Of a DNA stretch of 22,026 nt, positions 4,847-21,991 are shown one piece after another. How positions within the stretch are numbered: the first letter of the stretch is position 1; each line of letters opens with the position of its first letter. The DNA comes from a virus, in IMG/VR virus record IMGVR_UViG_3300023112_000103, positions 1-22,026 of that record; one strand, written 5' to 3'. Under the pieces are notes generated by a model. That model did not search any database. It had not been told where the DNA came from and saw only the letters and a program-made list of their open reading frames with translations. Both the position numbers and the translations under genes were made by a program.

Positions 4847-7495
4847 CTAATTAGTTTTCTGTAAAATAAAATATTTATTTGAATATGTAATTTTGTCCAA
4901 TCCGAGTCCCACTTTAAGCTCCGCATCGACATAGGGAGTGACTCTACAGATTACATCGGACGCAGAATTTAAATCCCCACTTGTCAATTTGCGAAAAATT
5001 GGAAAATTTATATCCGGGATGCCAGTTATATCATTTTCAAAGCCCGTCAAGACCTCTACCTTAACTAAGTTCATATAATTCTGCTTCATCATATAGTATG
5101 TGTTGGGATTTTTAAAATAATCTCCAGCTAGAGCTGGACTGAGCCATTGGTTTATACACTTATCTGATTTACCTGCGAATAAGGCCCGGACCTGATTGGG
5201 CATGCCTGAAACTTTTAAGAGGACATTGGAAGGTCTTTTACCAAAACTCTCTTCTTCTGGGATTTTGCTCAATAAATTGTTTGTTATATTTGCGAGATCG
5301 AAATCCTCTTTGGATAAATCCCACCCCTCTTCGCTTTTCAGCATCATATTTATCATTGTCTTATAGTTGTCTTGAAGAGGCAGCTCCGATATTCCGGAAA
5401 TATATGGCTCATCCTCTTTTTCATATTCAAGATTTATAGGATCTCCAGGTCCAAACTTTTCCCTTGCTGTCGTCGTCTTTTTTGTTGATGTTGGGATGCC
5501 AGCATCTGTTTGATCGAAGAATCCCTGCTCGACAGAGACCCCCAAATTCATCAAATAATAAGATATCGAAGTATCTGCTGTCAAGTTTTTGCTAAATTTC
5601 TTTTTATAGTGCTCCTCGTTGAAGACTTTAATATCAAACTGATTAGAACTTCCTAGCAGAGTATCTCCTATCACCCTTGGTGATAAAAAACTATAATAAT
5701 TGCTTTCGAAGTTAAAATAGGAACTCTGCAAACTTGTTGGGGAGGGGGAGGAGTAATCATATGCTGTTAGAAGTATCTCGTTGTTCAAGTTTTCGAAATT
5801 ATCGGGGAGTTCTTTCATTATTTTTAAAAATTCATCATCAAATCTTTCTTTGATATATGTGGCAGTTATTTTAGCAACACCGAAATCTCTATTTGATATG
5901 TTTTCCAAAGACACTGTATCAGTACGCGAGCGGCCGGAGGATACAGTTACCGGCTCGGGGCCGAGGTAGTCATATGAAAAGTCGCGGGCATCTGCAAAAT
6001 TGACGGTATTTGGGAATTTTTTTGCAGAAGATAAGAAAAATAAGTCTGAATTGTTCTTTGTGTATGTTTTTGATGGACTAGAATTTGTTTGAGATACTAC
6101 ACCGGATTTTCCAATGAGGGATAATATTTTCTGTATCAAAGAATCGTTGTTTCGCCTCAATTGAATGGCGGATACTTCGTGAAAAAGGAGATTTTTAATA
6201 TATTTCTTCAAATCTTCACTTGTAAGTGTTATTTCGTCGTTTAAAGATAACAATTTTGTGGATATTCTCTCAGATATCACAGTTGAGGGTGCTAAAGCTG
6301 CACCGCCAGATGATGTGGTCGGCTTTTTAGTAATAATTTTATCGATATCTACCTGAATTTCAATTAATTGATTTAATGTATCGATCAGCCATATCAAAAT
6401 CCCGTCTTGGACTCTAATTTCCGCAGAATACTGATATTCTCCATCATCTGCTGTAGAGAAATCATCAAATCCGACTATTTTTTCTGATTTAATGCTTGGC
6501 AAATCTATATTTTCGATTTCTTTTATGTTTGCAAGCAATGTACCCTGGCTGTTACTCTTAGAGGTGTTTATTAGGGTGCCAGTAGAGTCAGATTCCGTAG
6601 TTGAGATTATCTGCAATATCGATTGGTTCTTTTCGGCCGAGACGGGACGGTTTTTAAAGTCTAAAAAATGAGCCAGCTTGCGCCTCTTGATTCTCAAGTT
6701 CACAATTTTAGAGTTATTATATATCTTTTCCTCTTCGATGGAAGGTATGTCGGTGTTTTGCAACATTTTTCCGAATTTACTATTTTGAATCAGATATTTT
6801 CTCTTATCAAAGAAGAACATTCCTTTTATCTCACCAGATTGTCCGTAAGAGGAAAACAAATCTGATATTGCCGGTCCTTTTTGCCCCTCCGAGGGGGTGA
6901 AAAGACTAAAATTAAAAAGATTATCATAAAAAACAGTCCTCGCGTCTTCGATACGTTGCGAAGTGTCTTCTATATTTAAATTTCCATCCTCAATTACTAT
7001 ACGAGATTGATATTGCTGATTATATTTTCCATTTCTCTTTTGAAATAAAAATACCTCCAAATATGCGATATTATCCTCTTCCGGTGTTATTTCAGCTCTA
7101 TAAGAGAAGGGATATTTATAATATTTATCTCCAGATTTTTCATCTACCTCTATATCTGGATTAATTTTTCCAAATAAAAAGGTTTGAAATTGTAATTTTT
7201 GCTCTTGTCTGATTGACTTAGTGCTTGTTTCTATCAACCATCGGGTGATTCCACTATCTTCTATATCTTGTTTTAAATTTTCAGAAACAATAGGATCTGT
7301 TACCAGCACCATTACTGAATGTAATCTCTTATCTTTTGATAAGTCCAGTGCGGGATTTCCGAAAGCATCCCTGCCAGAAAAGACACTATGCTCTAATTGC
7401 AGATTATATCCGATTAAAGAGTCTCCAGAATCTGTTCTTGAATCAGAAATTTTATCTGTTATTGATATTTTTTCGATTTGTAAGACATAGCTCAT
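4847..7495 (-). CDS. Virion structural protein, 882 aa (unrecognised)
   Basis: I place the start at ATG 7495, giving MSYVLQIEKIS. Its A is the last base of the upstream TAA stop (TAATG), and a TGAGGA ribosome site ends 9 nt before it. The TTG codon at 7504 would add only three residues and sits too close to that ribosome site. The protein is hydrophilic, without signal peptide or membrane segment. It is rich in Ser, Asn, Lys and Asp, with predicted beta structure in the first 180 residues. A notable motif is DDGEYQYSAEIRVQDG at about 350-365, followed by an Ile/Leu-rich amphipathic helix at about 366-390. The C-terminal 150 residues (from FGKRPSNVLLKVSGMPNQVR on) look like a compact domain. 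Position and size suggest a baseplate or tail-tip component, but no known family can be named. Confidence 0.85.
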   Translation of the reverse strand: MSYVLQIEKISITDKISDSRTDSGDSLIGYNLQLEHSVFSGRDAFGNPALDLSKDKRLHSVMVLVTDPIVSENLKQDIEDSGITRWLIETSTKSIRQEQKLQFQTFLFGKINPDIEVDEKSGDKYYKYPFSYRAEITPEEDNIAYLEVFLFQKRNGKYNQQYQSRIVIEDGNLNIEDTSQRIEDARTVFYDNLFNFSLFTPSEGQKGPAISDLFSSYGQSGEIKGMFFFDKRKYLIQNSKFGKMLQNTDIPSIEEEKIYNNSKIVNLRIKRRKLAHFLDFKNRPVSAEKNQSILQIISTTESDSTGTLINTSKSNSQGTLLANIKEIENIDLPSIKSEKIVGFDDFSTADDGEYQYSAEIRVQDGILIWLIDTLNQLIEIQVDIDKIITKKPTTSSGGAALAPSTVISERISTKLLSLNDEITLTSEDLKKYIKNLLFHEVSAIQLRRNNDSLIQKILSLIGKSGVVSQTNSSPSKTYTKNNSDLFFLSSAKKFPNTVNFADARDFSYDYLGPEPVTVSSGRSRTDTVSLENISNRDFGVAKITATYIKERFDDEFLKIMKELPDNFENLNNEILLTAYDYSSPSPTSLQSSYFNFESNYYSFLSPRVIGDTLLGSSNQFDIKVFNEEHYKKKFSKNLTADTSISYYLMNLGVSVEQGFFDQTDAGIPTSTKKTTTAREKFGPGDPINLEYEKEDEPYISGISELPLQDNYKTMINMMLKSEEGWDLSKEDFDLANITNNLLSKIPEEESFGKRPSNVLLKVSGMPNQVRALFAGKSDKCINQWLSPALAGDYFKNPNTYYMMKQNYMNLVKVEVLTGFENDITGIPDINFPIFRKLTSGDLNSASDVICRVTPYVDAELKVGLGLDKITYSNKYFILQKTN

Positions 7496-8514
7496 TAAAT
7501 ACAATCCTCAATATCGTCAATGGACACATTCGTTCCGTATATATCAGAAATCGCTTCTCTAATAAATAGGCTAGTTTCAGATAAATAATCTTGATCCGTA
7601 TATAAACCCTTTGATTTTAATACGGAAACAGAATTACTAATTAGCTCGCGGTCGATATCGCCATCATAAAATATATCAAAGTAATATTCCACATTAGAGG
7701 GATTCAAGGTGACTTCTTCCATGTCCTCCTCTGGTATCTCATCCAATAAAATATTATTAACTATACTTTTTCTTGTTTTCTTGGCGAAGCTTAGAGGGAT
7801 GAGCTGCTCTTCTAGTCCAACGGGAGTTACTACCTCGAATACCTCTACTTCAAAATTTTCTATCATAAAGTCTGTATTTTCTTCCAATATATCTGCTAAT
7901 ATAAAATCTGTTTGAATTGACAAGAATGTCCCATCAGGGGCTATTTCGCTAGTTATATTACCATCTGTCAGTTCCGTCTGTGCGATTATATCCGAACTAT
8001 CATCCATTGGGCGCAATGATGTTTCAGGAGAAGTGATGTTCGAGACTGTAACCTTGAAATCAACGTTAATATTAATTTGTGGTATTATTGTTTTTCCAAA
8101 TTTTGTCCGATATTCCAAATCATATGAGTTTGCAGTACCCTTTAACAGTCTCATGTTTGTTGCCGCATACTTGTCAACTCCCATTTGGGATGTTCCAATT
8201 GGCTTTGAGAGGGCATCTTTCTCAAGGGGAGCGGTAGTTACAACTTTATCGCCGCCGCCAAAGTCCACCTCGATGCTCTCTTTAAAATCCTCAGTAAATT
8301 TGCTCTGAGTTTGTAACTGCGGTGTGATATTCCGGATACGAGTATCTGCGGCACTTTGATTTTCTGTTTCGCCACCATATTGAATATCGTAAAGAATATT
8401 GTCATCAAAAAAAGCATAATAGACGGGCTTGAGTTTTCCGTTAGATAAAAGATGCTTTCCATATGGGGTCAGCTCTATGTCTAGAACTTCTTCTTTTTTG
8501 TTCATAAAAAGCAT
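7495..8514 (-). CDS. Virion structural protein with fibre-type LTPYG...FFDDNILYD N-terminus, 339 aa
   Basis: ATG 8514 follows the TAG stop of the giant gene with no gap, and GGAG lies 9 nt upstream. An in-frame ATG at 8505 (giving MNKKEEVLDIEL) is the alternative start but is poorly spaced from that ribosome site. Residues 11-43 read LDIELTPYGKHLLSNGKLKP and then YYAFFDDNILYD. This matches position by position the N-terminal motif of the 307-residue protein at 329-1252 (LT-x2-G-[KR]-x2-L-x2-G, then [YF]A-x2-DD-x-I-x-Y). The remaining part is acidic and beta-rich, with many Glu/Asp-Ile pairs and a very acidic region near 265-280 (EIPEEDMEEVTL). No Cys occurs before the terminal DCI. It is probably a small adaptor or fibre-attachment protein of the baseplate periphery; the exact role is unknown. 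Confidence 0.87.
   Translation of the reverse strand: MLFMNKKEEVLDIELTPYGKHLLSNGKLKPVYYAFFDDNILYDIQYGGETENQSAADTRIRNITPQLQTQSKFTEDFKESIEVDFGGGDKVVTTAPLEKDALSKPIGTSQMGVDKYAATNMRLLKGTANSYDLEYRTKFGKTIIPQININVDFKVTVSNITSPETSLRPMDDSSDIIAQTELTDGNITSEIAPDGTFLSIQTDFILADILEENTDFMIENFEVEVFEVVTPVGLEEQLIPLSFAKKTRKSIVNNILLDEIPEEDMEEVTLNPSNVEYYFDIFYDGDIDRELISNSVSVLKSKGLYTDQDYLSETSLFIREAISDIYGTNVSIDDIEDCI
7505..7510 (-). promoter_or_regulatory. Ribosome binding site TGAGGA deciding ATG 7495
   Basis: TGAGGA on the minus strand ends 9 nt before ATG 7495 and lies inside the last codons of the 339-residue gene. The spacing suits ATG 7495, which overlaps the upstream stop as TAATG. It does not suit TTG 7504, which immediately follows the site. 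This supports translational coupling of the two genes. Confidence 0.6.
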
Positions 8515-11500
8515 CTATTCGGTCTCCAATTTTAGTTTATTTGCCTGAACAAGCGCAGCTGTTTGACCTTCTTGAAAAGATTTTTGCTGCTTTGACTCTG
8601 TAGAACTCAAAGAGTTGGCAGATGGGATGTCCGTAGTGGGATCTGGCGGCAGTGTGTTTTTCGAAATGGGTGATTGAGTCTTGAGAGTGGCATTCGGGAT
8701 TGTTCCATACGAAATTTCTGCATCCATTTTTGCGAACTCCACCATTGAAAAATAATCGTATGGCCAATTGTAGCTAAATTCGCTAGTTGTGGCTTCCTTT
8801 GGCGGACTTACCAGTATATTATTCCAATAATCTGCCTCAGCCCTTTGTTTTACCTTAAAGACCATCCACTTCACTTTCTTCTTAAGGTCTTCGTTATCTA
8901 AAAGCTCGGTTGTTAAAAGAGGGTGAGTGATAGAAGAGGTAGCTTCTTTAAACTCTGTTCCAAATCTAGGGGCTATATTCTGCCACATACACGATAAGTC
9001 AAACTTGTTAAAGGTGTGATCAAATTCAAAAATATACATGGATACTGGCTTTGCCCCCAAGTTTCTAAAAAAGTCAAATTGAGGGGGGAAGACATACTTA
9101 TCTTTCACGAGAAGAGCCATATTAATGATGTCCTGACTAGCATCTGCACCGAACATTGCTAATGGGGAACGCTCTTGCAGGGGAATTGAGGTGTGGAAAG
9201 ACCCCACGGTAGGGATGTCGAAAAACTTCCTTTGGACTCTTGCACTGCTCTTTCCCTTCGCGATATCTGCGGCTAATTCGGTATAAAACGGAACTGCGAC
9301 GATTGCCTCATATACGGTTTTTTCCTCCGAGATATTTCCTATTTTTTTACTTTGGGAGCTGTTCTTGCCAGCAAAGCCCACAATTTCAGCCAACGATCTG
9401 GATCTGTTAATATTGAGATATTTTGCGGAAATATCCGACTGGGTTGCCCTCTTGTCTAACCAATCTTCTGGAATAGGACCAACTTCCAAAAAGATTCCCT
9501 GATCTTTTTCTGGAATCGTGCCAAACTGATGCCATATGCCTATTGGAGTTGTTGTTTGTCCTCCGACACCCGTCCATGGGGTACTCCCTGTTGTTGGCAG
9601 TGTCAATCCAGTAAGATATCTGTAGAAAGGTATGGAATTCGAATAATCCGCTTTCCCAAAAGGTCCAAAATTCAATACTGGTGTTTCAAACTTAGTCTGA
9701 ATTGCCCATGCGGGATTGTTAGTAGCAGGATCGACTTCGGATTGCACAAATTTCTTCCCCATTAGATTAATTGAAGATGTCAGTTGCATCGCATAATTGT
9801 TGACACTCGCGCTGTGCATGGGATAGGCTGCTGCACCTGTGTCTCCACTTGGCCAAGTGTCAGGGTCGAGACCGTCTATTCTCCAGCAGATTTGTTCAGA
9901 ATTCGCCTGAATGTCCTCAAGGGATGGAATTCCTCCACTTGCGGGAGTATAAATAAGATCGATCCAAGATTCTCCACTATAATAAGGTGGTGTGTGAGTT
10001 ACATTGTATCCGTATAGGGCATCAGTAACTTCTTGTCTGTTCCACAGTCCATATCTAGGCGCGTCGAGGGTGGCGGATCCGCAGGTAGGATCAGGACCTC
10101 CAAATATCCCCCTGAACTCTGGAGTTCTTATGCTACCACTAAATGAACCCGTACCGGCCATTGGCGGACCAAAAGCACTAGGTCTGCTGTACATATTTAG
10201 AGTCGCCATTCTATAATTATTTTCGACATCTCCAACAAAATTCAATCCTGAGTTATCCGAATAGTATTCTTGCGGGGTGGTCCAATCGGATATTTCTCTC
10301 TTTACACCGGTCATGCTTCTTCTGATTTTTACCCTCATTGCATATGAAACACCTGCATTTACGGGAGAAAAGTCGCTCTCTTGCTTACTATCCAAACTAG
10401 TAAGTTCCTCACCTTTTAGGAAAAATTTGGTACTTTCTCCCAAGAAATTACTGATTGCCAGTTTGTAGTCGTCATTGCGAGTGGACTCGGCGATTATGGT
10501 AGAATATATGCTGTTAAGAGAGCAACTTGGGTGCGGCTCCATATCATAAAATTTTATGTCCTTCAACAATGTCGGGTCCAATATTGACTCAAACGGAACT
10601 CGGTAGTGCCATCGTCCGGAATCTGAAGTCGCTGGTCCAATAGCATAATAATCACTATAATCTTCTGGAGCAGGTGGTGTGACGGTGCCGCTATTGTTGA
10701 AATACTGCACCGTCGTAAAAGACCCCGTATACACAGGATAATCGACTGCAATTCCAGATTTAATTGTATTATATAAAATGCCAGGAGAGAATAATGGTGC
10801 CAAGATTGGACGCATCTTTAAAATTTCCGATGAAGCATCGGAACCTTCTGTTCCTGCAATTTTATCTTCGTACACTTCTGTGAATTTTTTAGCAATTTGC
10901 AATGTTCTTTCGGCGGGATAAAATCCGTCATATGGAAGAAACTTCATCAATGCCTTGCAATAAAGAGTCAGGTTTTTCGGCATATCAAAGTCGTCGTGGT
11001 CGTCAGAAACAATTTTGAAATTCTCCATAAAATCAGAAAAAGAATAAATCCTATAGAATTCATCTTCAGAACTATTTCTTGGTGTTATTTCTGAAATTTG
11101 TACATCGTATGTGTCGCCCTGTCCGGCAGTATCTGCATAGTCAACCACCTGAGTGTTGTTTACATTTACTCCGAAAATTGAAAATGAAGCCGTATTTTGT
11201 GCTAAGAACCCGTCAGCATCTTCTAAATATTTGTTCACATGATCGCTTATTCTAAATTCTGGCACAAGAGACATATCCTTATTTTTTAGCCTCATGTTGT
11301 GTACATATTGTTCGTATTTGTCGTAGAATGGTGTCGACGGGGAAGAAACAAATACACCATCTTCCATATATCCAGATTGCTCATGAGCTTCAAATTTTGC
11401 ATTTCCTCCAAAAATTGAAACATATCCGAGATCATTGAATTGAGAAGACCCTGGCCAGGAAGTCGTTCCTGGCATCTCTTCTGCGGATAGATAATGCACA

Positions 11501-14500
11501 TCTTCCAAGATTGTATTATAAATCCACCTTTGGCCGCTAGGCGGGCTGGAACATCCAGCTTTGGTGAGGAACCAAGGATTTATTGCCCACGGATCGATTA
11601 CAGATAAACAAGACCCAAGAGTGTGTTTCCTTGCATATATTGGAGCTGGCTGCAGAGATCCGGTATCTCCAGAAACTCCGCCAATGAGTCGGTAAGCAAA
11701 GGTATAATCATTCTGAAGCTCACCTGCAGCTCCCATTGATGCACTTTCCGCTATATAAGTTGATAACCCAGTCCCAAACTGTTCTGATGTGTCAAGTGCC
11801 CAAGCACTTTGTGATACAACATATCCTTGAGAATTGGATCCTCCAAATTTAGTTTTTCCAAGTGCCGTTCTTTCCACTCTGGAGTTCTTCCAAAAATCAT
11901 TCTCGTATTCGTGTCGGGCACGGTTTCTGGAACTATATGAATTTTGAGCTGTTGGATATACTTGTTCTTGGTATGCGAAATACCCTATTCCCTGTATTGG
12001 GTTTGAAATTTCATCAAAAGAACCCTTGACATAAAATTCTTTGATAACATCATATGAGGTTTTTACATTCTCATTTGTTATATTTAAATCCGAAGAGATT
12101 AATCTATTTGAGAATAAGGTTTTTTGGTTGCCATAGGAGCTATTAATTTTTGTGTTTTCTATGGTGGAATAACCTATTTCCTGAACTGCTGTTTTTAAAA
12201 TGTGTTTTAAAGGCTTATATTTTGAGATGACTGGAGAGTCTTTTCTTATTATGAAGTCGCCATTGGTCAAATTGTAAGCAGTTCTATTCGAAGAGTTCCA
12301 TTTTCTCACAAGGGGATTCTCGTGCCCTCTCGTCTGCTTCCAACTTGGATGCTGGTATGGTCCGTTTCTCTTTAGAAGAATGGCATTCAACAGAGATGCT
12401 TTTCCGTCTCCAAAGAAAAGACCAGAAGATATCAGAGAATCATTCAAATAACTAGAGACATCCAAACCTGATTGATTATATCCTATGAAAGAGTTTATAT
12501 ACTCCTGCGGTTCGTAAACATTGTAATTTAACCAATTATATACTGTCGGGACATAATAAGATGCTGTATAGTTTATCGTCTCGTCTGGAAGTTCAGACGC
12601 ATCTGCACCAAACCTTGGAATCGGAGCAGTTGGTCCAACCACATCATAAATTACAGATACGAAATCGCTTGCTGATGAGAAGGTTATTAGATCGCCAGTG
12701 CCGTCGTAAGGGAGGTATCCGAATGTTCCGTATGACATTGCAGAAGCTGCTATCCAGGAATACTGCAGATCCGATCTGGGGATGGCATGCTGGACATAGA
12801 AGTTATCATAAACAGATGCAGTAACCGTGGTCGATCCGGAATCTTTCATTTGCCTAATTGTATTTCTGTTTACCTGATACATGCTGCCGGTGCCAGCATA
12901 ATTTAGCGAGTTAACTACGGATGGTCCATTTCCGATGTCAAATGTGTCGGAATAAAAGCCAAATTGATTGACATGTGAAGCCAATAAGAGGTTATTGATA
13001 TCCCGCACGGGAGTGTTTCTATAGTTTATGTTGTTATATGGTGAAAATTCTGCAGCTTCTGGGTCAAGTGCTGGTCCGCCGTCTGAGTCACCGGCAGTGT
13101 CTGGGGATCCTGGAGATGAAAAGCGGTTAACGAAGACATACTCGGTCCTGCCGCGTTGGGGTTTTGTATAGTCAGTCATGCCAGCGACAAATGGCGATGG
13201 GATTTCCTCAACACTGAAGCCGCCAGCCTTTACGAAAGCGGAATTATTTTTTGTTCTACTGACCGTCTGAACGATTTCATAGTCTTTTGAATAGTTTCCT
13301 AGCCCATATGTAGCAGTGCTGTCCTTAATATTCTTAATATTCAGCAATCTTTTTGCTGTGAGATCCCTATAGTGAGTCGCTCTGGGGTGACTTACTGGCT
13401 GGTGGATAACCTTTAAATCTGAATAGAGACCCTGAAAGTCCATTACCCATGCCTCTGGGCGGTTTAGTGGATTATCGGTGCCAGTATTTAAGGGAACATG
13501 TCTGTGCTGGTTTCCTCCGACATATTTTTCAGTGAATGGACCTTGAAGTGGCACCTCCGAGTCGATATAGGAATCAATATGTAGGTTCTCTATACTGAAT
13601 GCTGGCTGGAATTCTTCGTTTATCTTCTTGTTATACCCAGAATTTACGAAAACACCGTTTACATATAAATCTCCAGTTAATACTGATATAAAAGGCGCGA
13701 AAAGATCGCCCGGTCCGGACATGTATGGGTCCGAATCTAGTTGATTCTGTATTTTGTAAGGAATTTTTATTTTTGATATAGGAGTAATCCCATCAACACA
13801 ATCTGGCGGAGACCCACCCCCTTCAATTGGAATCAAGAGTCCATCTGTAGATCCAAATTTAACAGATTTTTTAAAATTTTGTCGAATATTATTATTATTG
13901 GATGTCAAGCCAGAAGATACAAGCTCTTCCCTCTTCACCCCCATTCTCAAGGGGGTAGAATATTTTCTCGTCAAAGCAGACAGTGTAACTGATAAGATTT
14001 GCTCTTTTGCGGAGTCAACACCGGCTATTCCAGTTGCTAATGGCGGATCTTCCCTTGAGGCGCGCTCTTTCCAATAGAAGCAAGCTTCCCTCTCTGATCC
14101 AGCGATGGGGCGATGACCTGTTTTCCAGTCATAAAGCAGTTCGTTTATGCCTCGAATTCCCGTTTCTGGGTCTTCCTTTTTCATATCGACTGTGGGATAT
14201 TTATTCCAATACTTATTTCTCTCCAAAACATGGCTTTCAACCATGGTTCTTATGCCATCTTGTGTAATAGCACTCGCTGGGAACAATTCCATCAACATTT
14301 GTCCCAAAGAATCGTCTACCCACTTATAATATTCAACATATCTCTCAATATCCGGTGTATTTTCAATATTTTCGAAGAAAAGAGATCTTAATTTACCGAG
14401 AGATTTATATTCCTGTCTATATCTGTTAACTGGATCACCAATTAAACTATTAAAATCTAAAATTGTTGCGAAATAATTAATTATTTCTTCGGTTATGGTT

Positions 14501-17500
14501 GCATACATACTTTTTTCTATGCTATAGAAAAAGTTTATTGGTCTTGACTGCTTAGTGAATAGCTGTTCATCTTCAATATTGAATACTTTAACCATGTCGT
14601 ATGAATTTACCACTTCGGGAGCAACTTGTCTTCCGGCGGGGATAAATTCTACATTTATTACTGACAAGTCTTCTGGATATAAGAAATCTGCACGACCTGT
14701 GTGTTGCTTTCCTATTACATTCCCGAGCCAACCATATCTAGAGGCTATTTCAGTCGAGCCAGAAGAGTAATCCGTCACTCCGAATCCTGCATCCGCTGTG
14801 GTTGGAGAGCCGGAGCCATTGTCCGAACCAGTGATTTGGTCAAATCTCCAATGAAGGGCGAGAGTTTCCATCTGTGGAATTTCCCGATTATCCAAAGATG
14901 TTACGAAATTATAAGTATTTTGGTATGGAGATTCTTGTCCAAAGTTATCAGTGTCTCTCGCATGGGATTTTATTGTGTTATCGCTAAGATAGCTCGTCCA
15001 ATATCTGAAATTCGAAACCTTGATATCACTTCCATGAATAACACTTGAGCCTGTGAAGTTCGGCCGGTGAGCACCGACATAAATTCTTTTTGGTTTATTC
15101 AAGTATTTATCACCATCTGTAGTGACTGTAGTGCTCAGGGAAACTTCATTTTGTACAGTATCCATTACCATATTTACGGCGTAGAGTTCCACCAGATAAT
15201 CAGTGTTGGACGAACCCGATACTAGATTTGATTGTTGTTTTTCTGGACTTACTCTTGCGGAAATATTCCATTTTCCGTTATTATATAAATCTTTTACCGT
15301 ATCGCTGACCAACTCTATTCCGTAATAAGAACTTGTCAACATTAGACGACCATCGGAAAGGTTTCCGTTAAGATCTGGTCTTATGGCATAAACTTGTAAA
15401 TCGTAATCTGGAGAACCCCATGTGAAATTCGTCGGGTCTGTATCGTCTGCTGTATGGAATCCAAATATAGAAGAGGTTTGAAATGGTGTGGGATAATACA
15501 CATTATTTTCAGATACCTTCTTTTTTGGAAATAATACCTCGATCTCCGCAGTAAATGAAGTGTAGTCCTCTAAGTCTGAGTTAGAAGCCGAAATAAAAGA
15601 TACAGAATCTGGAACTATAGACGAAGTTTGTTGATATATTGTTGAATAGAATGCATCGGGGCGATAGAAATCCACAAACCTCTTTTTAGATGTTGCGAAG
15701 CTGTAATTTTCCCTCAAATCATATGTTAGATTATTGGCATATGCATTAATTTTAATTAATTTCTCATCAATACCATAGCATCTCATGACATTTCGAAATG
15801 ATTTTTCAGTTCCCTTTGATTTATAAATGTCAACAACATTATTATAAATATTTTTATAAATTAAGTTCTTTGTTTCAAAAAGGTTCTCCAAAAACTCCTT
15901 TCCCTCATCTCTTGAGGAAATTTGATTCAAAACGGATGCATCTGCGAATATTTCAGGTGTTAAGAAGCCAACATTATCCAATAATTCATCAGAAAAAGGA
16001 ATTTCTTTGTTGCTAGAGCTTACATATGAAATATTTTTTAGCTTATTTACTTCCCCTATTTGTAAAAATAATGTATCTAAGTAACTCGACATTACTTGTG
16101 TTAAATCTTTTAGACTTCCATCCTGATCGCTGTCGGCTTGAGTGATCCAATTCGGGAAACTGTCATATAGAGAGGTAGTGTTCTGATAATCATGATATGA
16201 ACCAGATGATGCCATTTCAGAAACCAATGCCTGCACGGCGGGATGTTCTGAATATATAATGGGATCTAAAAATTCTGATGAGGCGGCGTTGGCTTCAACC
16301 ATGGCTGAAGAAGTATTTCTGGAGTTTACAGTGTATCCGGTCCATGTGCCATTTGTTACTCTACCAGAATAGTCCAAAACTGAAGAGTCTATGGTGTTGA
16401 TTCCCGTAATCCCTTCATTAAATTTATAGTATACACCTAAATCAGCATTAGAAATATCAGTATTTGTTCCACCATAAACTTGTGTAAACCACTCTCGGCC
16501 AATTTCCTGCGAAGTTCTTTTTGATTTCCAGAAGCGGAATTCATCGAGAGAGCCAGAAAGCTTTCCCCAACCCTTATCGGCATATTCAGTTGACGAAACA
16601 ACTGCTGGACTCGTTAATGCTCCGATATTTGCTTGGAGGGCACCCGTAATTTCACCCAAGTTCGGGCTTCGGGCTTCTGTTTCTGCGAGTTCCCCATTGA
16701 TATAAAAGTCTGTTTTAATTGAGGCATCGTCATTGTAGATTCGAAAGGCATAATGTGAAAATGTGTCAAATGACGAAGTTGTTAAAGTTGTTCCAAAGGA
16801 TACCTCCTCAAACGGAGCAGTCGCTCCGGACTGGACTGTTAAAATAAATGGCGATGTGCCAGATGTTCCAGTAACTTGGAGAAGTATTCTTCCGTAAGAG
16901 GCTGCCGAGGAGGTAGTATTGTTCCAGAGGTCAAAAATTACTTCTTTTTCTGTTTTTGTGTTATCAAAATTTTCTTTTTTGAACCAAAATTCAACAGTTA
17001 CTCCATTGTCGAAATTTGTTTTTAGATTGCCCTCTCTTGTTCCCGTGCCCTCATATCCAGCATTATCATAGATGTCGGTATCGTATTTGTTCGAATCTTC
17101 AAATGTGGAGCTTATTCTTTTACCAAACATCCCCTCAGATGCCGTATGTGGTCCTCCAAAAAAATTAATGTATTCTTTAGTGGTTGGTTCTCCGTAAAAG
17201 CTTGTAGCCACCGTTGGGGCGGTCGTAGAGGCACCCCACCCGTTGGCAGAAAGCTGAATATAGCCGTTTGTTCGAGGATATTTGTTGTCCAACATCCACA
17301 GATCAATATATGTTGATTCATATGTATATTGTTGCTTTTCTTTTGAGGATCCATCATATGGGTAATCCTCATAAATGCGAGTTATTGCATCGCGATAGTA
17401 TTTTTCAGCCGAACCGTATCGTGCAAAGTTTTCAGGCTTGGAGAAATCTACCTGTGGGATGGAGCGGTTTCTGTTTTTCCAAGTTACAGAAACATTTTCT

Positions 17501-17589
17501 AAAGATTCCCCGTCATCTCTAATTTTTTTTGGCTTCTCTGCGAAGACGGAGTAGGGTGTGTCTCCGTCAAAAAGATTTCTTATACTCAT
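8515..17589 (-). CDS. Giant virion protein, 3024 aa, two LamG-like units around a GpI/gp7-like segment
   Basis: The start is taken as ATG 17589, which overlaps the upstream TGA as ATGA and has AGGA 10 nt upstream; TTG 17613 would add eight residues. An N-terminal linker (1-185) leads to a LamG/concanavalin-A-like domain at about 190-370 (VTVEFWFKKE ... LSGSLDEFRFWKSKRTSQE) and a YYKFNEG...DYSG tail. Next is a helical segment at about 545-630 with IYKSKGTEKSFRNVMRCYGI, resembling the KGT helix of P2 GpI-type tail proteins, the counterpart of T4 gp7. A second LamG-like unit spans about 675-890 (GKWNISARVSP, RIYVGAHRP, VSNFRYWTSYL) with its own HWRFDQ tail. Residues 1000-2960 are unrecognised but well folded in appearance, with YVGGNQHRHVPLN at about 1356. 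The last 60 residues are Pro/Ser/Gln-rich and probably disordered. It is three times the length of T4 gp7 (1032 aa). It probably forms part of the wedge and its outer shell. Confidence 0.88.
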   Translation of the reverse strand: MSIRNLFDGDTPYSVFAEKPKKIRDDGESLENVSVTWKNRNRSIPQVDFSKPENFARYGSAEKYYRDAITRIYEDYPYDGSSKEKQQYTYESTYIDLWMLDNKYPRTNGYIQLSANGWGASTTAPTVATSFYGEPTTKEYINFFGGPHTASEGMFGKRISSTFEDSNKYDTDIYDNAGYEGTGTREGNLKTNFDNGVTVEFWFKKENFDNTKTEKEVIFDLWNNTTSSAASYGRILLQVTGTSGTSPFILTVQSGATAPFEEVSFGTTLTTSSFDTFSHYAFRIYNDDASIKTDFYINGELAETEARSPNLGEITGALQANIGALTSPAVVSSTEYADKGWGKLSGSLDEFRFWKSKRTSQEIGREWFTQVYGGTNTDISNADLGVYYKFNEGITGINTIDSSVLDYSGRVTNGTWTGYTVNSRNTSSAMVEANAASSEFLDPIIYSEHPAVQALVSEMASSGSYHDYQNTTSLYDSFPNWITQADSDQDGSLKDLTQVMSSYLDTLFLQIGEVNKLKNISYVSSSNKEIPFSDELLDNVGFLTPEIFADASVLNQISSRDEGKEFLENLFETKNLIYKNIYNNVVDIYKSKGTEKSFRNVMRCYGIDEKLIKINAYANNLTYDLRENYSFATSKKRFVDFYRPDAFYSTIYQQTSSIVPDSVSFISASNSDLEDYTSFTAEIEVLFPKKKVSENNVYYPTPFQTSSIFGFHTADDTDPTNFTWGSPDYDLQVYAIRPDLNGNLSDGRLMLTSSYYGIELVSDTVKDLYNNGKWNISARVSPEKQQSNLVSGSSNTDYLVELYAVNMVMDTVQNEVSLSTTVTTDGDKYLNKPKRIYVGAHRPNFTGSSVIHGSDIKVSNFRYWTSYLSDNTIKSHARDTDNFGQESPYQNTYNFVTSLDNREIPQMETLALHWRFDQITGSDNGSGSPTTADAGFGVTDYSSGSTEIASRYGWLGNVIGKQHTGRADFLYPEDLSVINVEFIPAGRQVAPEVVNSYDMVKVFNIEDEQLFTKQSRPINFFYSIEKSMYATITEEIINYFATILDFNSLIGDPVNRYRQEYKSLGKLRSLFFENIENTPDIERYVEYYKWVDDSLGQMLMELFPASAITQDGIRTMVESHVLERNKYWNKYPTVDMKKEDPETGIRGINELLYDWKTGHRPIAGSEREACFYWKERASREDPPLATGIAGVDSAKEQILSVTLSALTRKYSTPLRMGVKREELVSSGLTSNNNNIRQNFKKSVKFGSTDGLLIPIEGGGSPPDCVDGITPISKIKIPYKIQNQLDSDPYMSGPGDLFAPFISVLTGDLYVNGVFVNSGYNKKINEEFQPAFSIENLHIDSYIDSEVPLQGPFTEKYVGGNQHRHVPLNTGTDNPLNRPEAWVMDFQGLYSDLKVIHQPVSHPRATHYRDLTAKRLLNIKNIKDSTATYGLGNYSKDYEIVQTVSRTKNNSAFVKAGGFSVEEIPSPFVAGMTDYTKPQRGRTEYVFVNRFSSPGSPDTAGDSDGGPALDPEAAEFSPYNNINYRNTPVRDINNLLLASHVNQFGFYSDTFDIGNGPSVVNSLNYAGTGSMYQVNRNTIRQMKDSGSTTVTASVYDNFYVQHAIPRSDLQYSWIAASAMSYGTFGYLPYDGTGDLITFSSASDFVSVIYDVVGPTAPIPRFGADASELPDETINYTASYYVPTVYNWLNYNVYEPQEYINSFIGYNQSGLDVSSYLNDSLISSGLFFGDGKASLLNAILLKRNGPYQHPSWKQTRGHENPLVRKWNSSNRTAYNLTNGDFIIRKDSPVISKYKPLKHILKTAVQEIGYSTIENTKINSSYGNQKTLFSNRLISSDLNITNENVKTSYDVIKEFYVKGSFDEISNPIQGIGYFAYQEQVYPTAQNSYSSRNRARHEYENDFWKNSRVERTALGKTKFGGSNSQGYVVSQSAWALDTSEQFGTGLSTYIAESASMGAAGELQNDYTFAYRLIGGVSGDTGSLQPAPIYARKHTLGSCLSVIDPWAINPWFLTKAGCSSPPSGQRWIYNTILEDVHYLSAEEMPGTTSWPGSSQFNDLGYVSIFGGNAKFEAHEQSGYMEDGVFVSSPSTPFYDKYEQYVHNMRLKNKDMSLVPEFRISDHVNKYLEDADGFLAQNTASFSIFGVNVNNTQVVDYADTAGQGDTYDVQISEITPRNSSEDEFYRIYSFSDFMENFKIVSDDHDDFDMPKNLTLYCKALMKFLPYDGFYPAERTLQIAKKFTEVYEDKIAGTEGSDASSEILKMRPILAPLFSPGILYNTIKSGIAVDYPVYTGSFTTVQYFNNSGTVTPPAPEDYSDYYAIGPATSDSGRWHYRVPFESILDPTLLKDIKFYDMEPHPSCSLNSIYSTIIAESTRNDDYKLAISNFLGESTKFFLKGEELTSLDSKQESDFSPVNAGVSYAMRVKIRRSMTGVKREISDWTTPQEYYSDNSGLNFVGDVENNYRMATLNMYSRPSAFGPPMAGTGSFSGSIRTPEFRGIFGGPDPTCGSATLDAPRYGLWNRQEVTDALYGYNVTHTPPYYSGESWIDLIYTPASGGIPSLEDIQANSEQICWRIDGLDPDTWPSGDTGAAAYPMHSASVNNYAMQLTSSINLMGKKFVQSEVDPATNNPAWAIQTKFETPVLNFGPFGKADYSNSIPFYRYLTGLTLPTTGSTPWTGVGGQTTTPIGIWHQFGTIPEKDQGIFLEVGPIPEDWLDKRATQSDISAKYLNINRSRSLAEIVGFAGKNSSQSKKIGNISEEKTVYEAIVAVPFYTELAADIAKGKSSARVQRKFFDIPTVGSFHTSIPLQERSPLAMFGADASQDIINMALLVKDKYVFPPQFDFFRNLGAKPVSMYIFEFDHTFNKFDLSCMWQNIAPRFGTEFKEATSSITHPLLTTELLDNEDLKKKVKWMVFKVKQRAEADYWNNILVSPPKEATTSEFSYNWPYDYFSMVEFAKMDAEISYGTIPNATLKTQSPISKNTLPPDPTTDIPSANSLSSTESKQQKSFQEGQTAALVQANKLKLETE
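15808..15822 (-). other. KSKGT motif of the GpI/gp7-like helix
   Basis: These five codons (residues 590-594 of the giant protein) encode KSKGT. They follow a run of helical residues (NLIYKNIYNNVVDIY) and precede a basic helix ending in a CYGI turn. In P2 GpI-type tail proteins a comparable 'KGT then helix then small-residue turn' is seen. I use it as the main evidence that this part of the giant protein occupies the wedge position next to the gp6/GpJ-like protein. The match is by eye and short. Confidence 0.45.
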
Positions 17590-19781
17590 ACTTCTTCTAT
17601 CCTGAATTTCCAAATGTGCGGCTGCTCAACATAACTGTTTACGGTATCATCGTAATAGGCTATCTTGATTCCATATGAATATCCAGGATCTAAGAGGTCC
17701 ATCTTTAAATCAAAGTAATTTCCACTGACATCAAAAGACATTTCTGTTCCCCTATCACTACCTGTATTATACGGAATTGCAACTAAGTCGTCTACTACTC
17801 TATGTATTTGATATGATGCACTCTCTATTGTAAGTGAATCATTTTTTGTAGTTGCCACAGTATAAATAGTGGGACTCCAATCTTTTTGTCTGACATAAAA
17901 TCTAAAACGATTTGCTTCATGTGTGTAATATATTGAGCGCAGATTTGTCAATGCTGTCACATAGTTGGGATAAGGATTGTGTGTGCTGGCAGAGTACCTC
18001 TTTACTTCGAAAGTTCCTGTGTGGTACACATTTGTTCCGCCGCCATCAAACCATCTATCATAGGCAATGCTAGCCGTCGTGTCCAGCGCGAAAGATGCAG
18101 AATAAATGCCAGTCGAAACATATCCAGCTGCAGTTGTGGTCAATAATTCACCCTCGGAAGCACTAGTATAGACCCTCACTACCATGGCTCCAGTTCCTAC
18201 TGCTGGAATATTTCTCAATCTTCCGCCGATTACATTATATAAGTATAAGGTTCGAAGATTGTCTGCGGCGGGGACCAATGAACTGCTAGCATAAAAATTT
18301 CCCCGATCATCTTTAATGGAGGAGTCCCACACAGCTTGAATAGTTGGTCTCTTAAAAAAGAATTCTGAGCCTCTGCCGAAAAACTTCTTTGTATAATAGG
18401 ATCCCCTTGTTCCGCCGGTATTAATTAATTGGCCACCTGACTCTCGGCCCACAGTTCCGTTTTGGCCGGAGCACGAGCCAGTTACGATGGACATGCCTCC
18501 CGAACCGGTGGCATAAAGATTCATGTCACCAGCCCTGTCATAAATACTTATTTCTATTGGGGGAGTTCCAAGATTAATTTCATCTCTAGGATCATCGCCG
18601 TGAACCCACCAATTTGAGAGATTTTCGTAAATAGAAAGCTCTTCAATCGGAGCCGGACATGCGCCATTATAAAGCTCAGTTATTTCTCCGGGACTTAAAA
18701 TTTTGTTAAAAAATGCTACGTCGTCTATAAATCCATTAAAATTATAGGAAGCTCCCAATTTTGAGCCTCCAATGGCAAACATATTGACATCAGTTAATGC
18801 AGAACCTGCGCCCTGTATGACCGTTGCAGAAGCGGAGATTGAGTTTATATAAATTGAGGGAATATCTGCTGAGTCTTGGGTGTCAGTCACTGCTATGTGG
18901 GTCCAGGTGTTCAGGGGGATGGAATCATCAGTTGTTATTATGGTGGTCCCTCCGGAGTATACCTTTCTATAAGTAATTGCGGTACCGCCTGGATCTATTA
19001 GCAAAATTCTCCGGGGTTGGTGATCGACTTCTCTCTGCCAAAAAAGAACATATCCCGGATCCGTGTTGATGGATTGTTTAATCCAGGCGGATATTGTAGA
19101 ATCGCTGGCCAGATCGGTATCCGAGGTTCCTGAAAGGAACGCTGAACCGTCAAATTGTACAGCTTCTCTTGGGTAATATTCTGCGAAATAAGCTTCCTGG
19201 CTTGAAGTTAGGTGAACCCCAACGCCGTAATTGTTAATTGTGCCATCTACCCAATTTTCCACAAGGCTAGTAATATTGATTTTTAAATCTTCGTTCCCGA
19301 TTGGAAGCTGTTGAGAAAAAGCAGGGGAATTCAGATAATCGCCACCCTCTCTTAGCCACGGTGTATTTTCAGCAGAATTAACCCAGTTAGACCCTTCACC
19401 ATTTCTTGTAACATCCTTATAGCTATCCATATCCAAACCTGTTCCCTCTTCCCAAGAACTAGAAATGGGGAGAACCGACAAAGACAGGTCTCGGGGCGTT
19501 GTTTGGTTGTGTGGTGCGTTGTATAAATTGAGTATGAAACTTACCTCTCCGGAATTTGGTATGATCCCTGCAGCCCTGTCAGAAACGATTTCGCTAATTG
19601 GAAACTGAATTAAAACTCTTTCCAACTCTGTAGACCCAGAACTAGCTTGACCATAAATTGAAAATGTTTCCAATATATCTGATAATCCCATATTTGCACC
19701 GGTGGCGCGGGTGGTCAAATTAGATTTAAAAGCATTCGTTATTGTGTTATCTTTGTTTGCAAAATATTTCTTAATCGCCAT
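17586..19781 (-). CDS. Virion protein, 731 aa, DNRLRE-type beta-sandwich with inserted LamG domain
   Basis: ATG 19781 overlaps the TAA of the gp6-like gene (TAATG) and has GGAG 10 nt upstream. The gene ends in TGA at 17586, inside the ATGA start of the giant gene. Residues 10-198 look like a DNRLRE-type carbohydrate-binding beta-sandwich (ERVLIQFPIS; LSVLPISSSWEEGTG; SLVENWVDGTINNYGVGVHL). A LamG/concanavalin-A-like domain follows at about 205-375 (VQFDGSAFLSG, STISAWIKQ, NTWTHIAVTD, FNGFIDDVAFFNKILSPGEI). The expected closing strand of the DNRLRE fold then appears at about 467-486 (FFGRGSEFFFKRPTIQAVWD). The LamG thus seems inserted into a loop of the first domain. The C-terminal 230 residues form a further beta-rich region ending HIWKFRIEEV. 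Both domain types commonly bind glycans, so a baseplate-linked, host-surface-contacting role is likely but inferred. Confidence 0.88.
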   Translation of the reverse strand: MAIKKYFANKDNTITNAFKSNLTTRATGANMGLSDILETFSIYGQASSGSTELERVLIQFPISEIVSDRAAGIIPNSGEVSFILNLYNAPHNQTTPRDLSLSVLPISSSWEEGTGLDMDSYKDVTRNGEGSNWVNSAENTPWLREGGDYLNSPAFSQQLPIGNEDLKINITSLVENWVDGTINNYGVGVHLTSSQEAYFAEYYPREAVQFDGSAFLSGTSDTDLASDSTISAWIKQSINTDPGYVLFWQREVDHQPRRILLIDPGGTAITYRKVYSGGTTIITTDDSIPLNTWTHIAVTDTQDSADIPSIYINSISASATVIQGAGSALTDVNMFAIGGSKLGASYNFNGFIDDVAFFNKILSPGEITELYNGACPAPIEELSIYENLSNWWVHGDDPRDEINLGTPPIEISIYDRAGDMNLYATGSGGMSIVTGSCSGQNGTVGRESGGQLINTGGTRGSYYTKKFFGRGSEFFFKRPTIQAVWDSSIKDDRGNFYASSSLVPAADNLRTLYLYNVIGGRLRNIPAVGTGAMVVRVYTSASEGELLTTTAAGYVSTGIYSASFALDTTASIAYDRWFDGGGTNVYHTGTFEVKRYSASTHNPYPNYVTALTNLRSIYYTHEANRFRFYVRQKDWSPTIYTVATTKNDSLTIESASYQIHRVVDDLVAIPYNTGSDRGTEMSFDVSGNYFDLKMDLLDPGYSYGIKIAYYDDTVNSYVEQPHIWKFRIEEV
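17590..17603 (-). promoter_or_regulatory. Ribosome binding site deciding ATG 17589
   Basis: The minus strand reads AGGATAGAAGAAGT directly before ATG 17589, with AGGA 10 nt and AGAAG a few nt from the start. The start overlaps the stop of the previous gene as ATGA. Together these favour ATG 17589 over TTG 17613, which would lie before the ribosome site. Confidence 0.6.
18657..19169 (-). other. LamG/concanavalin-A-like domain inside the 731-aa protein
   Basis: Residues 205-375 show the usual LamG order: an opening FDG strand, an SAWIK strand, a central NTWTHIAVTD strand, then YINS, and finally a GFIDDVAFFNKILSPGEI signature before the last helix turn. It sits between the VHLTSSQEAYF strand and the FKRPTIQAVWD strand of the surrounding DNRLRE-like domain. 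This is one of three LamG-like units in two adjacent genes. Confidence 0.75.
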
Positions 19782-21574
19782 TATCTTATAACTCCAGTAA
19801 TATCAATATCGGGAAATCTTATCTCAAAACAAACATTGGTAGGGCAATCAAGGCGGCGGCCGTCTGCAGATAAATTACTTGATATATCGTATCCTATCGC
19901 GGAGTATGCGGACCCAATTTTATTAGTCAATGTCACATTTCTAGTATCAATGACACCGCGCAAGCGATTTAATTCGTAATAAATGTCTGTCAGGTAAAAT
20001 GGTGCACCCATCAATAAAGATCTGGAATATCTCTCTTTTAAAGTGTTTATGCAACTCGCGAAAAGATCGGACTTATTGAAGGAGGGGTCGCCTATTACTT
20101 CAAAGTTGATACCAATATTTACTATTTTTCCATCAATTATATCAACAGTGTCGTTGACCATTTTATAATTCGAAAGCCAAATTCTTAAATTTTCCTTCAT
20201 AGTTTGACTAGCCGTTGCGAGTTTTTTGTCTTTGTTTTCTGTTAATACATATAGGTTTAGATTTCTTTTAAAAGAGTCTTGGTCAACTACCACTGCGCAG
20301 CGGCTAATCGAGCCGTACTTGGACGGCATTGCATATGCCATAGCCTCATAGTCTTTCGAAGTTACGGCTCTACTCTGTGTTGCGAAATATGATGATGCTC
20401 TTTGTTTTATTTCTTCACTTGTCGGAGAGACGGAGCTTCCATTGATTGATTTCTCATTTCTGCATTCAAGCGAATTTCTAATTTGCGAAACTTGTGATGA
20501 GTTTATCGATAATAAATTTGGATATTCCACAATCAGATTTGTGATATTTTTGATAGCACCCACAGAGGCGTTTGGATTTGAACTACTATTTTTTCTATAT
20601 TTAATTTTCAATTGTGTGTTAGACGGAGAGATCCCAAGCTTGTCTGTTGAAAGAAGTTTTGATGGATCCAGATGAACATCGCTTACATAATCTCTACCAT
20701 AAAGATGGAGAGTTATTGAAGAGGGATCTGCAACGGGGTCGAGCCTTATTTCATCTTCGGATCCAAAACCAAATTGGAGAAAATAATTCTCTCCATCGAA
20801 TTCGAAAACAAATCTTCTTGGAACAGAGACTGGTCTCAAATATTCTTTAACCTGATCTGAACCGGAGTTCTTATTTGGGAAAGATTTATAAACTATATTT
20901 TGTGCCAGATTTTCAACTTGAAAATATTCATTTCCCTCTGAATCTTCTACTGATAATATTTCTACTACATTTTTATCTCTTAGGAAAACTTTGCGGAAAG
21001 TTTTATATTCTTCCACTGAAACTATTTTCTCCACTATGTCGCCAGATATAACCTCACCGTATGCCTTTATCGCATAGTGTGTTGGAATTCCACTACTCTC
21101 ATCAACTCTACCAACTACTACTGTGTTTGATGGATTGTCGAATCTTATGTCTTCTGTCAGAATAAAATTATTTCCATCGTCAGAAGAGAAGATCGAACCC
21201 TGCCTAATAATTGGCATATAATTTGAATCTGGCCCCAGTCCAAATTCATTAGCGGGAATTAGAGCATAGAGCGATAATTCTCCTTGCGATGATGCGACCT
21301 CTTGAAATTTATATCCCAGTTGTCTAGATAGGTTGACAACATTTTTCTTCTCAAAAGCCGTTCCAAGAAAGGACTCATTAACTTGATAATCTAAGTAATA
21401 AGACAAGACATCGCCAACATAAGATACTGTATCCAGCATTAAAGAGCCAAACGAAGCTTCATTAAAATCCTGATATACATCTGGATAATATCTTTTTGTA
21501 TAATCTATAAGAGATTCCTTGATAGAATTGAAATCCCTTGAAGTGTAATCTATTGAAACTTTTTTCTTTGCCAT
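19781..21574 (-). CDS. gp6: Baseplate wedge protein, gp6/GpJ-like, 597 aa
   Basis: ATG 21574 is preceded by AAGGA about 9-10 nt upstream, overlapping the TAA stop of the gp25-like gene 12 nt away. The N-terminus has the typical gp6/baseplate-J opening: DYTSRDFNSIKESLIDY, then DFNEASFGSLMLDTVSYVGD and LSYYLDYQVNESFL (residues 9-70). In the middle, FLQFGFGSEDEI (about 265-276) fits a J-like beta domain. The segment at 385-431 (TSEEIKQRASSYFATQSRAV, then TSKDYEAMAYAMPS) is the conserved region in which gp6/GpJ proteins dimerise. T4 gp6 has 660 residues, so the length fits. In the family, gp6 dimers form the inner ring of the baseplate with gp25, gp53 and gp7 attached. The gene is directly coupled (TAATG) to the downstream 731-residue gene. 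The call is strong. Confidence 0.93.
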   Translation of the reverse strand: MAKKKVSIDYTSRDFNSIKESLIDYTKRYYPDVYQDFNEASFGSLMLDTVSYVGDVLSYYLDYQVNESFLGTAFEKKNVVNLSRQLGYKFQEVASSQGELSLYALIPANEFGLGPDSNYMPIIRQGSIFSSDDGNNFILTEDIRFDNPSNTVVVGRVDESSGIPTHYAIKAYGEVISGDIVEKIVSVEEYKTFRKVFLRDKNVVEILSVEDSEGNEYFQVENLAQNIVYKSFPNKNSGSDQVKEYLRPVSVPRRFVFEFDGENYFLQFGFGSEDEIRLDPVADPSSITLHLYGRDYVSDVHLDPSKLLSTDKLGISPSNTQLKIKYRKNSSSNPNASVGAIKNITNLIVEYPNLLSINSSQVSQIRNSLECRNEKSINGSSVSPTSEEIKQRASSYFATQSRAVTSKDYEAMAYAMPSKYGSISRCAVVVDQDSFKRNLNLYVLTENKDKKLATASQTMKENLRIWLSNYKMVNDTVDIIDGKIVNIGINFEVIGDPSFNKSDLFASCINTLKERYSRSLLMGAPFYLTDIYYELNRLRGVIDTRNVTLTNKIGSAYSAIGYDISSNLSADGRRLDCPTNVCFEIRFPDIDITGVIR

Positions 21575-21586
21575 TTAATGTCTTCC

Positions 21587-21991
21587 TTATAAAATTCCCT
21601 GCACCGAGTCTACTGGACTTAAGTTAATATTCAATACCTCATTCTGTGTAAACGATGGTATGAAATACTCTATTTTAACCTCATAGGTATTTTGTAAATC
21701 TGTGCGCGGGGCGATGATTATATCTGTTACTTTGATGTATGGGAGGTATTTTTCAACTTGCGAAAGTATTCTAGAATTTATTTCTCCGCTGCTAAAATTG
21801 CCCTCTTGGTCAAAAATATATCTACTTATGCCTACACCAAAATCTGGATTCATGATGCGCTCGCCAGGGTTTGTTAGAACCAGCATTTTTAAATTCTGTG
21901 CTCCAACTTCTCGCATAGTCTTCAATAGAGTATAGGGTCCATCAACTGGATCATAAAAAAGCGGTAATTTAACAGCCAGCCCGTTTCCCAT
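21587..21991 (-). CDS. gp25: Baseplate wedge / sheath initiator, gp25/GpW-like, 134 aa
   Basis: ATG 21991 has AGGAG (21999-22003) 7 nt upstream. The protein has the length of T4 gp25 (132 aa) and its core signature: helix YTLLKTMREVGAQNLKMLVL (20-39), then TNPGERIMNPDFGVGISRYI (40-59), then SRILSQVEKYLPYIKVTDI (73-91) and paired C-terminal strands (NTYEVKIEYFIPS, EVLNINLS). In T4, gp25 sits beneath the sheath and starts sheath assembly; GpW of P2 and TssE of type VI secretion systems are in the same family. The next gene is the gp6-like partner, as in other contractile tails. It is the first gene of the visible run. I am confident of the family. Confidence 0.94.
   Translation of the reverse strand: MGNGLAVKLPLFYDPVDGPYTLLKTMREVGAQNLKMLVLTNPGERIMNPDFGVGISRYIFDQEGNFSSGEINSRILSQVEKYLPYIKVTDIIIAPRTDLQNTYEVKIEYFIPSFTQNEVLNINLSPVDSVQGIL

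Follow-up and report, generated by a model that had tools for sequence, protein, structure and literature searches.

The genes of P2 are arranged in the order W-J-I, and in T4 the slot after gp6 is occupied by gp7, a protein of 1032 aa with a KG(I/T) helix, FYSTKGIEASYKFLFKVLY, near residue 735. GpI-type proteins are short (about 180-240 residues) and without a lectin domain; in P2 GpI and its family PF09684 (Tail_P2_I), in pyocin Tri2 and in gp32 of A-1(L) a KGT helix is followed by a strand. In the cyanophage A-1(L), whose wedge has the composition (gp31)2-gp32, the subunit present once is gp32 (PMC10966104).

Much longer proteins are encoded in this slot by marine cyanophages (Kyanoviridae), with lengths, taken from record coordinates, of 3274 aa in Syn1, about 3495 aa in ACG-2014e, 4225 aa in ACG-2014f, 4314 aa in S-CAM7, 6167 aa in S-CAM8 and 6483 aa in Syn19. 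The gp25-gp6 order was read directly for Syn1, and gp6 is found directly upstream in ACG-2014e/f and S-CAM7. The ACG-2014f protein is annotated as 'baseplate wedge initiator'. Syn19_088 is assigned to T4-GC969, a cluster that proteomics found among the proteins of purified S-SM1 virions (PMC3037559).

The window, that is, the whole stretch of DNA analysed here, is an entire virus record of 22,026 bases (IMG/VR IMGVR_UViG_3300023112_000103). It encodes a protein of 3024 aa, hereafter the giant, which like the cyanophage giants comes after gp25 and gp6, extends over thousands of residues and carries a KGT-type helix, and which like the GpI-type proteins has a strand after that helix. We consider it likely that the giant is the third baseplate wedge subunit, of the gp7/GpI type, of a distant T4-like phage. 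The oddity known from the marine cyanophage giants in this gene slot thereby gains a new lineage.

Gene order around the giant

All the main genes of the window are on the minus strand, and in the order of transcription the following four were identified:

21587..21991, minus strand: gp25-like sheath initiator, 134 aa (PF04965 1.3e-10, 41 bits; phrog_261 3.6e-22)
19781..21574, minus strand: gp6-like wedge protein, 597 aa (phrog_219 1.3e-25; tblastn to Mel-JY01 4e-86)
17586..19781, minus strand: P0006, a LamG-bearing protein of 731 aa between the gp6-like protein and the giant (PF13385 1.4e-17)
8515..17589, minus strand: giant gp7-slot protein, 3024 aa (ORF and translation; whole-length relatives)

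The first-pass annotation of this DNA, made from the sequence alone, had given the giant these coordinates and this size and had placed a gp25-like, a gp6-like and one LamG gene before it; all of this was confirmed, the ORF lying on the minus strand. On the 3' side of the giant, proteins of 339, 885, 1167 and 307 aa are encoded, followed by a truncated one.

The giant thus sits downstream of gp25/W- and gp6/J-like genes, with one conserved gene of the P0006 family intervening, whereas in the cyanophages no gene lies between gp6 and the giant. The exact order gp25 - gp6 - P0006 family - giant was found in 77 of the 81 loci with three upstream genes. Relatives of P0006, of about 364-744 aa, occupy the same place between gp6 and the gp7-like gene; the N- and C-terminal parts of this family are conserved, and the LamG domain (P0006 residues 222-367) seems to be an optional insert. 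Since a T4-type gp23 capsid protein is encoded by five of the seven long contigs of the giant-bearing group, this group is regarded as distant T4-like.

In most giant loci the gene immediately before gp25 also encodes a large unannotated protein, of more than 1000 aa in most cases; the one at L005:2-6223 has 2073 aa with its 5' end open.

The giant and its relatives

The length of 3024 aa is counted from an ATG, the frame being open for 8 codons upstream to a TTG; the motif MSI(R/K).LF is also the N-terminus of relatives of the giant. This makes it 2.93 times as long as T4 gp7, in agreement with the threefold size that had been noted at first. A single-sequence search of IMG/VR with the giant gave nine loci, and an alignment search gave at least 479 matching stretches, of which the best 80 were kept. 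Intact giants in these loci have mostly 2.8-3.5 kaa, and relatives of this size are about 30-67% identical to the giant along its length. Judged by this length-wide conservation in the sequences of relatives, a chance ORF is ruled out. The longest giant seen here has 4735 aa (L103:4889-19096).

Scans of the giant and its relatives against PHROGs (E 0.1) and Pfam (E up to 10) returned LamG and chance matches only, and no match to the giant was obtained among PDB sequence profiles. The T4 gp7 domains (PF21427, PF21428, PF21456; phrog_964) are not matched by the giant, and the cyanophage giant gp7 profiles (phrog_4406, phrog_2885, phrog_701) are likewise missing from its results, as it has no match to any PHROG family. 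Syn1_094 also lacks the T4 gp7 Pfam domains.

A shorter lineage defines a two-part core

Three deposited genomes were reached through the gp6-like protein, namely those of Microcystis phage Mel-JY01, Flavobacterium phage immuto and the metagenomic phage LR756508 (484 kb). Their slot proteins, of 1336 aa (WWT39511.1), 1265 aa (gp109) and 1400 aa, respectively, have no assigned function and are preceded by gp25, gp6 and another one or two genes; they are homologous to one another and to the giant. An HMM of giant residues 430-660 matched immuto at 1e-17 and Mel-JY01 at 1.3e-16, and hhalign of part A of the giant core (see below) against the shorter family gave 99.3%. In IMG/VR this shorter lineage amounts to at least 573 matching stretches, and gp25 and gp6 precede the shorter homologs in 84 of 103 loci.

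The alignment of giants was divided into 11 pieces, and 104 shorter-lineage loci were searched with every one of them. Two pieces matched the shorter lineage broadly (E<1e-3), the first in the gp7-slot protein of 103 loci and the second in 92 loci:

15670..16269, minus strand: wedge core part A, residues 441-640 (helices, KGT helix, first strand), shared with the shorter lineage and in GpI/gp7 register
14140..14649, minus strand: wedge core part B, residues 981-1150 (strand, helices, strand), shared with the shorter lineage

The first lectin piece matched other genes in nine of the 104 loci, and the eight remaining pieces had no match in them. As these two pieces alone are common to the shorter slot proteins, we consider them a two-part conserved core. 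The proteins of Mel-JY01, immuto and LR756508 are clear homologs of the giant that resemble it in slot and wedge core, but they are devoid of its first lectin-like domain, its N-terminal part and its C-terminal 1870 residues. The two core parts would fold together into a core binding the gp6-like dimer, a role that would parallel those of gp7 in T4 and of GpI-type proteins in simpler phages.

The KGT helix and its relation to GpI and gp7

The first-pass annotation had pointed to a helix reminiscent of GpI-type proteins within residues 545-630, and the motif was located inside that range:

15769..15828, minus strand: KGT helix IYKSKGTEKSFRNVMRCYGI, residues 588-607 (family conservation; alignment to the GpI/gp7 helix)

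This helix is invariant or nearly so across the family, and an equivalent one is visible in P2 GpI (IHCHKGTIGAIRRVVEPLGY), in the T4 gp7 helix given above and in cyanophage gp7 (FYRAKGTDRSIKFIFNTL). When giants and shorter proteins together were compared with the GpI profile, the KGT helices fell in register (P 3.8e-4), and the giants alone scored 27.6 against GpI, the maximum in 200 column shuffles being 24.8. Comparison of the family with the cyanophage gp7 profile also set the KGT in register (P 0.0008-0.003). In addition, the KGT is covered by the best match of the GpI HMM in 81 of the 83 family proteins examined, and by that of the cyanophage gp7 HMM in 66 of 75, where random placement would give about one in each case; since the members are related, these counts are not independent trials.

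Single matches to GpI/gp7 profiles were weak, with hhalign probabilities of 3-36% that refer mainly to 20-50 residues around the KGT. Direct comparison with T4 gp7 was not significant, the KGT being in register in some runs and the alignment lying elsewhere in others. A search of the ten related records with PF09684 gave one match (E 0.024), which lies around the KGT of the LR756508 slot protein, and phrog_48 gave none in the same records. The profile phrog_17744 matched nowhere and is therefore uninformative. The best relative scored 12.7 bits, below the curated PF09684 cut-off of 20.6 bits, and the giant had no listed match. Because it stays below the thresholds of Tail_P2_I, T4 gp7 and the cyanophage PHROGs, the giant is not filed in those families. 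It belongs to a distinct and abundant family that probably has the same role as the gp7/GpI wedge subunit. The original proposal of a protein in the gp7/GpI slot with a GpI-type helix agrees with the gene order and with the register, weak as the latter is in each comparison. A separate gp7/GpI gene, which would have spoken against that proposal, was not found in related records: no second GpI (PF09684/phrog_48) appeared in the seven long contigs and the three phage genomes, the family itself being also below the cut-off; of the giant's own genome the window covers a 22-kb fragment.

Comparison with the cyanophage giants

The same slot, a similar size (3274 aa in Syn1) and the same KGT helix could also mean that the giant and the giant gp7 of cyanophages (T4-GC 826/969, phrog_4406/2885) are orthologues, descended from a common ancestor in which the protein was already giant. 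We find this very improbable. Besides the missing PHROG match, direct BLAST of the giant against Syn1_094 was no better than noise, the KGT helix is located close to residue 197 of the Syn1 protein and close to residue 592 of the giant, and for Syn1, the cyanophage protein compared, the long parts have no detectable similarity to the giant outside that helix. Given this lack of similarity of the long parts to Syn1, the two groups probably have a core in common around which each was enlarged independently, and we find this explanation more likely. This suggests that gp7 turned giant more than once.

Lectin-like domains and structural models

Two lectin-like domains had been proposed for the giant. 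The first is firm; the second is LamG-like by its predicted model:

16270..17271, minus strand: first lectin-like (LamG/pentraxin fold) domain, residues 107-440 (Pfam and VIA-align)
14650..15669, minus strand: second, LamG-like beta domain, residues 641-980, between core parts A and B (AF2 model)

PF13385 matched residues 192-363 of the giant (7.5e-08) with 33.1 bits, above its cut-off of 27.6, and VIA-align of residues ~107-440 returned pentraxin/LamG domains with Z about 20. No LamG match was found in T4 gp7. An AF2 model of residues 1-1160, built with 65 sequences (pLDDT 81), is nearly all beta at 641-980, and its matches to pairs of LamG domains span both domains, for which reason the second one (~641-980) is described as putatively LamG-like. 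The first domain stands before the core and the second interrupts it; at this latter point the immuto clade is without a domain and the Mel-JY01 clade has an insert. The core elements in the model are a helix, the KGT helix, a helix, a strand (613-618), the beta domain, a strand (1020-1027), helices up to residue 1100 and a strand (1109-1116). Based on this predicted secondary structure and on the P2 GpI sequence, we infer that the second beta domain would sit in the loop that follows the first strand of a GpI-like domain.

Foldseek and VIA searches of the PDB with the 1-1160 model gave pentraxin/LamG folds only. Since the pentraxin/LamG domain fills the match list, the core was modelled instead in a lectin-free relative, from the immuto clade (L194), whose AF2 model is poor (pLDDT 59). 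The best of 265 PDB chains aligned to it by VIA was 8kea_c, gp32 of A-1(L), with Z 7.2 over 114 residues at 4.8 A; taken by itself, a Z below 8 does not decide the matter, and this value, obtained with a model, lies in a range compatible with a common arrangement. The second chain was from the Streptomyces CIS baseplate 9GTP (Z 4.9), and ranks 4 and 21 were chains from the baseplates of phages 7-7-1 and phi812. Plain Foldseek with this low-confidence model gave no significant PDB match, and a BFVD search gave mostly uncharacterised viral proteins. The gp32 of A-1(L) is itself matched by the GpI profile (E 0.038). Profile and structural comparisons taken together point to GpI/gp7, each profile match being weak, and the proposed fusion of a wedge core with lectin-like domains and a long additional part is supported, the fold of the core depending on the low-confidence model of a relative.

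The lectin-like domains and the size of the giant would also fit a peripheral, fibre-like baseplate adhesin that happens to occupy this slot, with a coincidental KGT and with the true gp7/GpI in another small, unrecognised gene; the weakness of the single profile matches and the small size and divergence that GpI proteins can have go in the same direction. We consider this improbable because conservation in the family falls exactly on the KGT-bearing core, which is common to slot proteins that do not have the other pieces, because no other GpI was found in the ten related records and the slot order is fixed, and because the core model (L194) matches the wedge subunit gp32.

The C-terminal extension and the splitting of the gene

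Beyond core part B the wedge subunit candidate continues as a single long region, in which recurrent gene-split sites of relatives fall:

8518..14139, minus strand: C-terminal extension, residues 1151-3024 (~1870 residues), no database match
12736..12834, minus strand: gene-split region, residues 1586-1618 (L060/L068, near 1585; L005/L008, L093, L094 and L107, near 1617)
11827..11847, minus strand: second recurrent gene-split point, residues 1915-1921, near 1917 (L048, L051, L062, L077)

Residues 1151-3024 had no match in PHROGs, Pfam, PDB sequences or the shorter-lineage loci. Members of the giant lineage keep most of this region. Nevertheless, the giant is encoded as two genes, with the C-terminal part separate, in 10 of 73 non-redundant loci; besides the positions listed, a split was found near residue 1267 in L066. 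The split sites have new start codons, with an RBS-like sequence in most of them, which at the second point is purine-rich and present in each of the four loci, and no such split falls inside the wedge core. Sequencing errors were rejected as the cause at the new-start sites, given the RBS-like sequence in most and the recurrence of the position across loci. For the 1917 site, programmed frameshifting was assessed by eye; each of the four loci provides a separate start codon for the second ORF. Stops within an otherwise continuing homologous ORF were also observed (L003:7804-16956, L059:6710-15584, L063:3-8052) and may be sequencing errors or decay.

The first-pass annotation had envisaged a baseplate in which one chain supplies both wedge core and outer shell. 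The single chain holds for the window, where the giant is one ORF, and not for the 10 split loci, in which the separate C-terminal gene makes a single chain unnecessary and covalent linkage dispensable. Whether the chain covalently replaces the peripheral proteins gp8, gp10 and gp11 of T4, an idea that overlaps with that of a gp7/GpI-type subunit, seems doubtful to us: 1870 C-terminal residues are large enough for it and are mostly retained in the giant lineage, but they form a separate gene in the loci just mentioned, and no piece of the giant is similar to T4 gp8-gp12 above noise. In its fullest form, a wedge initiator would carry the whole peripheral wedge, that is, the core, two lectin-like domains (one between the core halves) and a shell module of 1870 residues, with repeated fission in sister lineages; this we put forward only tentatively, as a rather unlikely case. 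Under the preferred reading of the giant as a gp7/GpI-type subunit, the C-terminal part would be a separable addition, probably placed at the periphery of the baseplate, that could dock fibres or contact the host surface.

These results give a probable function to a large unannotated protein family of uncultured T4-like phages, with at least 479 stretches of the giant and at least 573 of the shorter lineage, and distinguish the wedge core from lineage-specific additions along the giant chain. Two cultured phages, immuto and Mel-JY01, open the prediction to test, and the suggested repeated enlargement of gp7 turns the reason for the growth of wedge initiators into a testable question.

Two minor observations concern the genes downstream of the giant. 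The proteins encoded at 329-1252 and 7495-8514 have in common an N-terminal module some 80 aa long (BLASTP E 0.005). For the N-terminal part of the 329-1252 protein, relatives are encoded just after the gp7-like gene of immuto, Mel-JY01 and LR756508.
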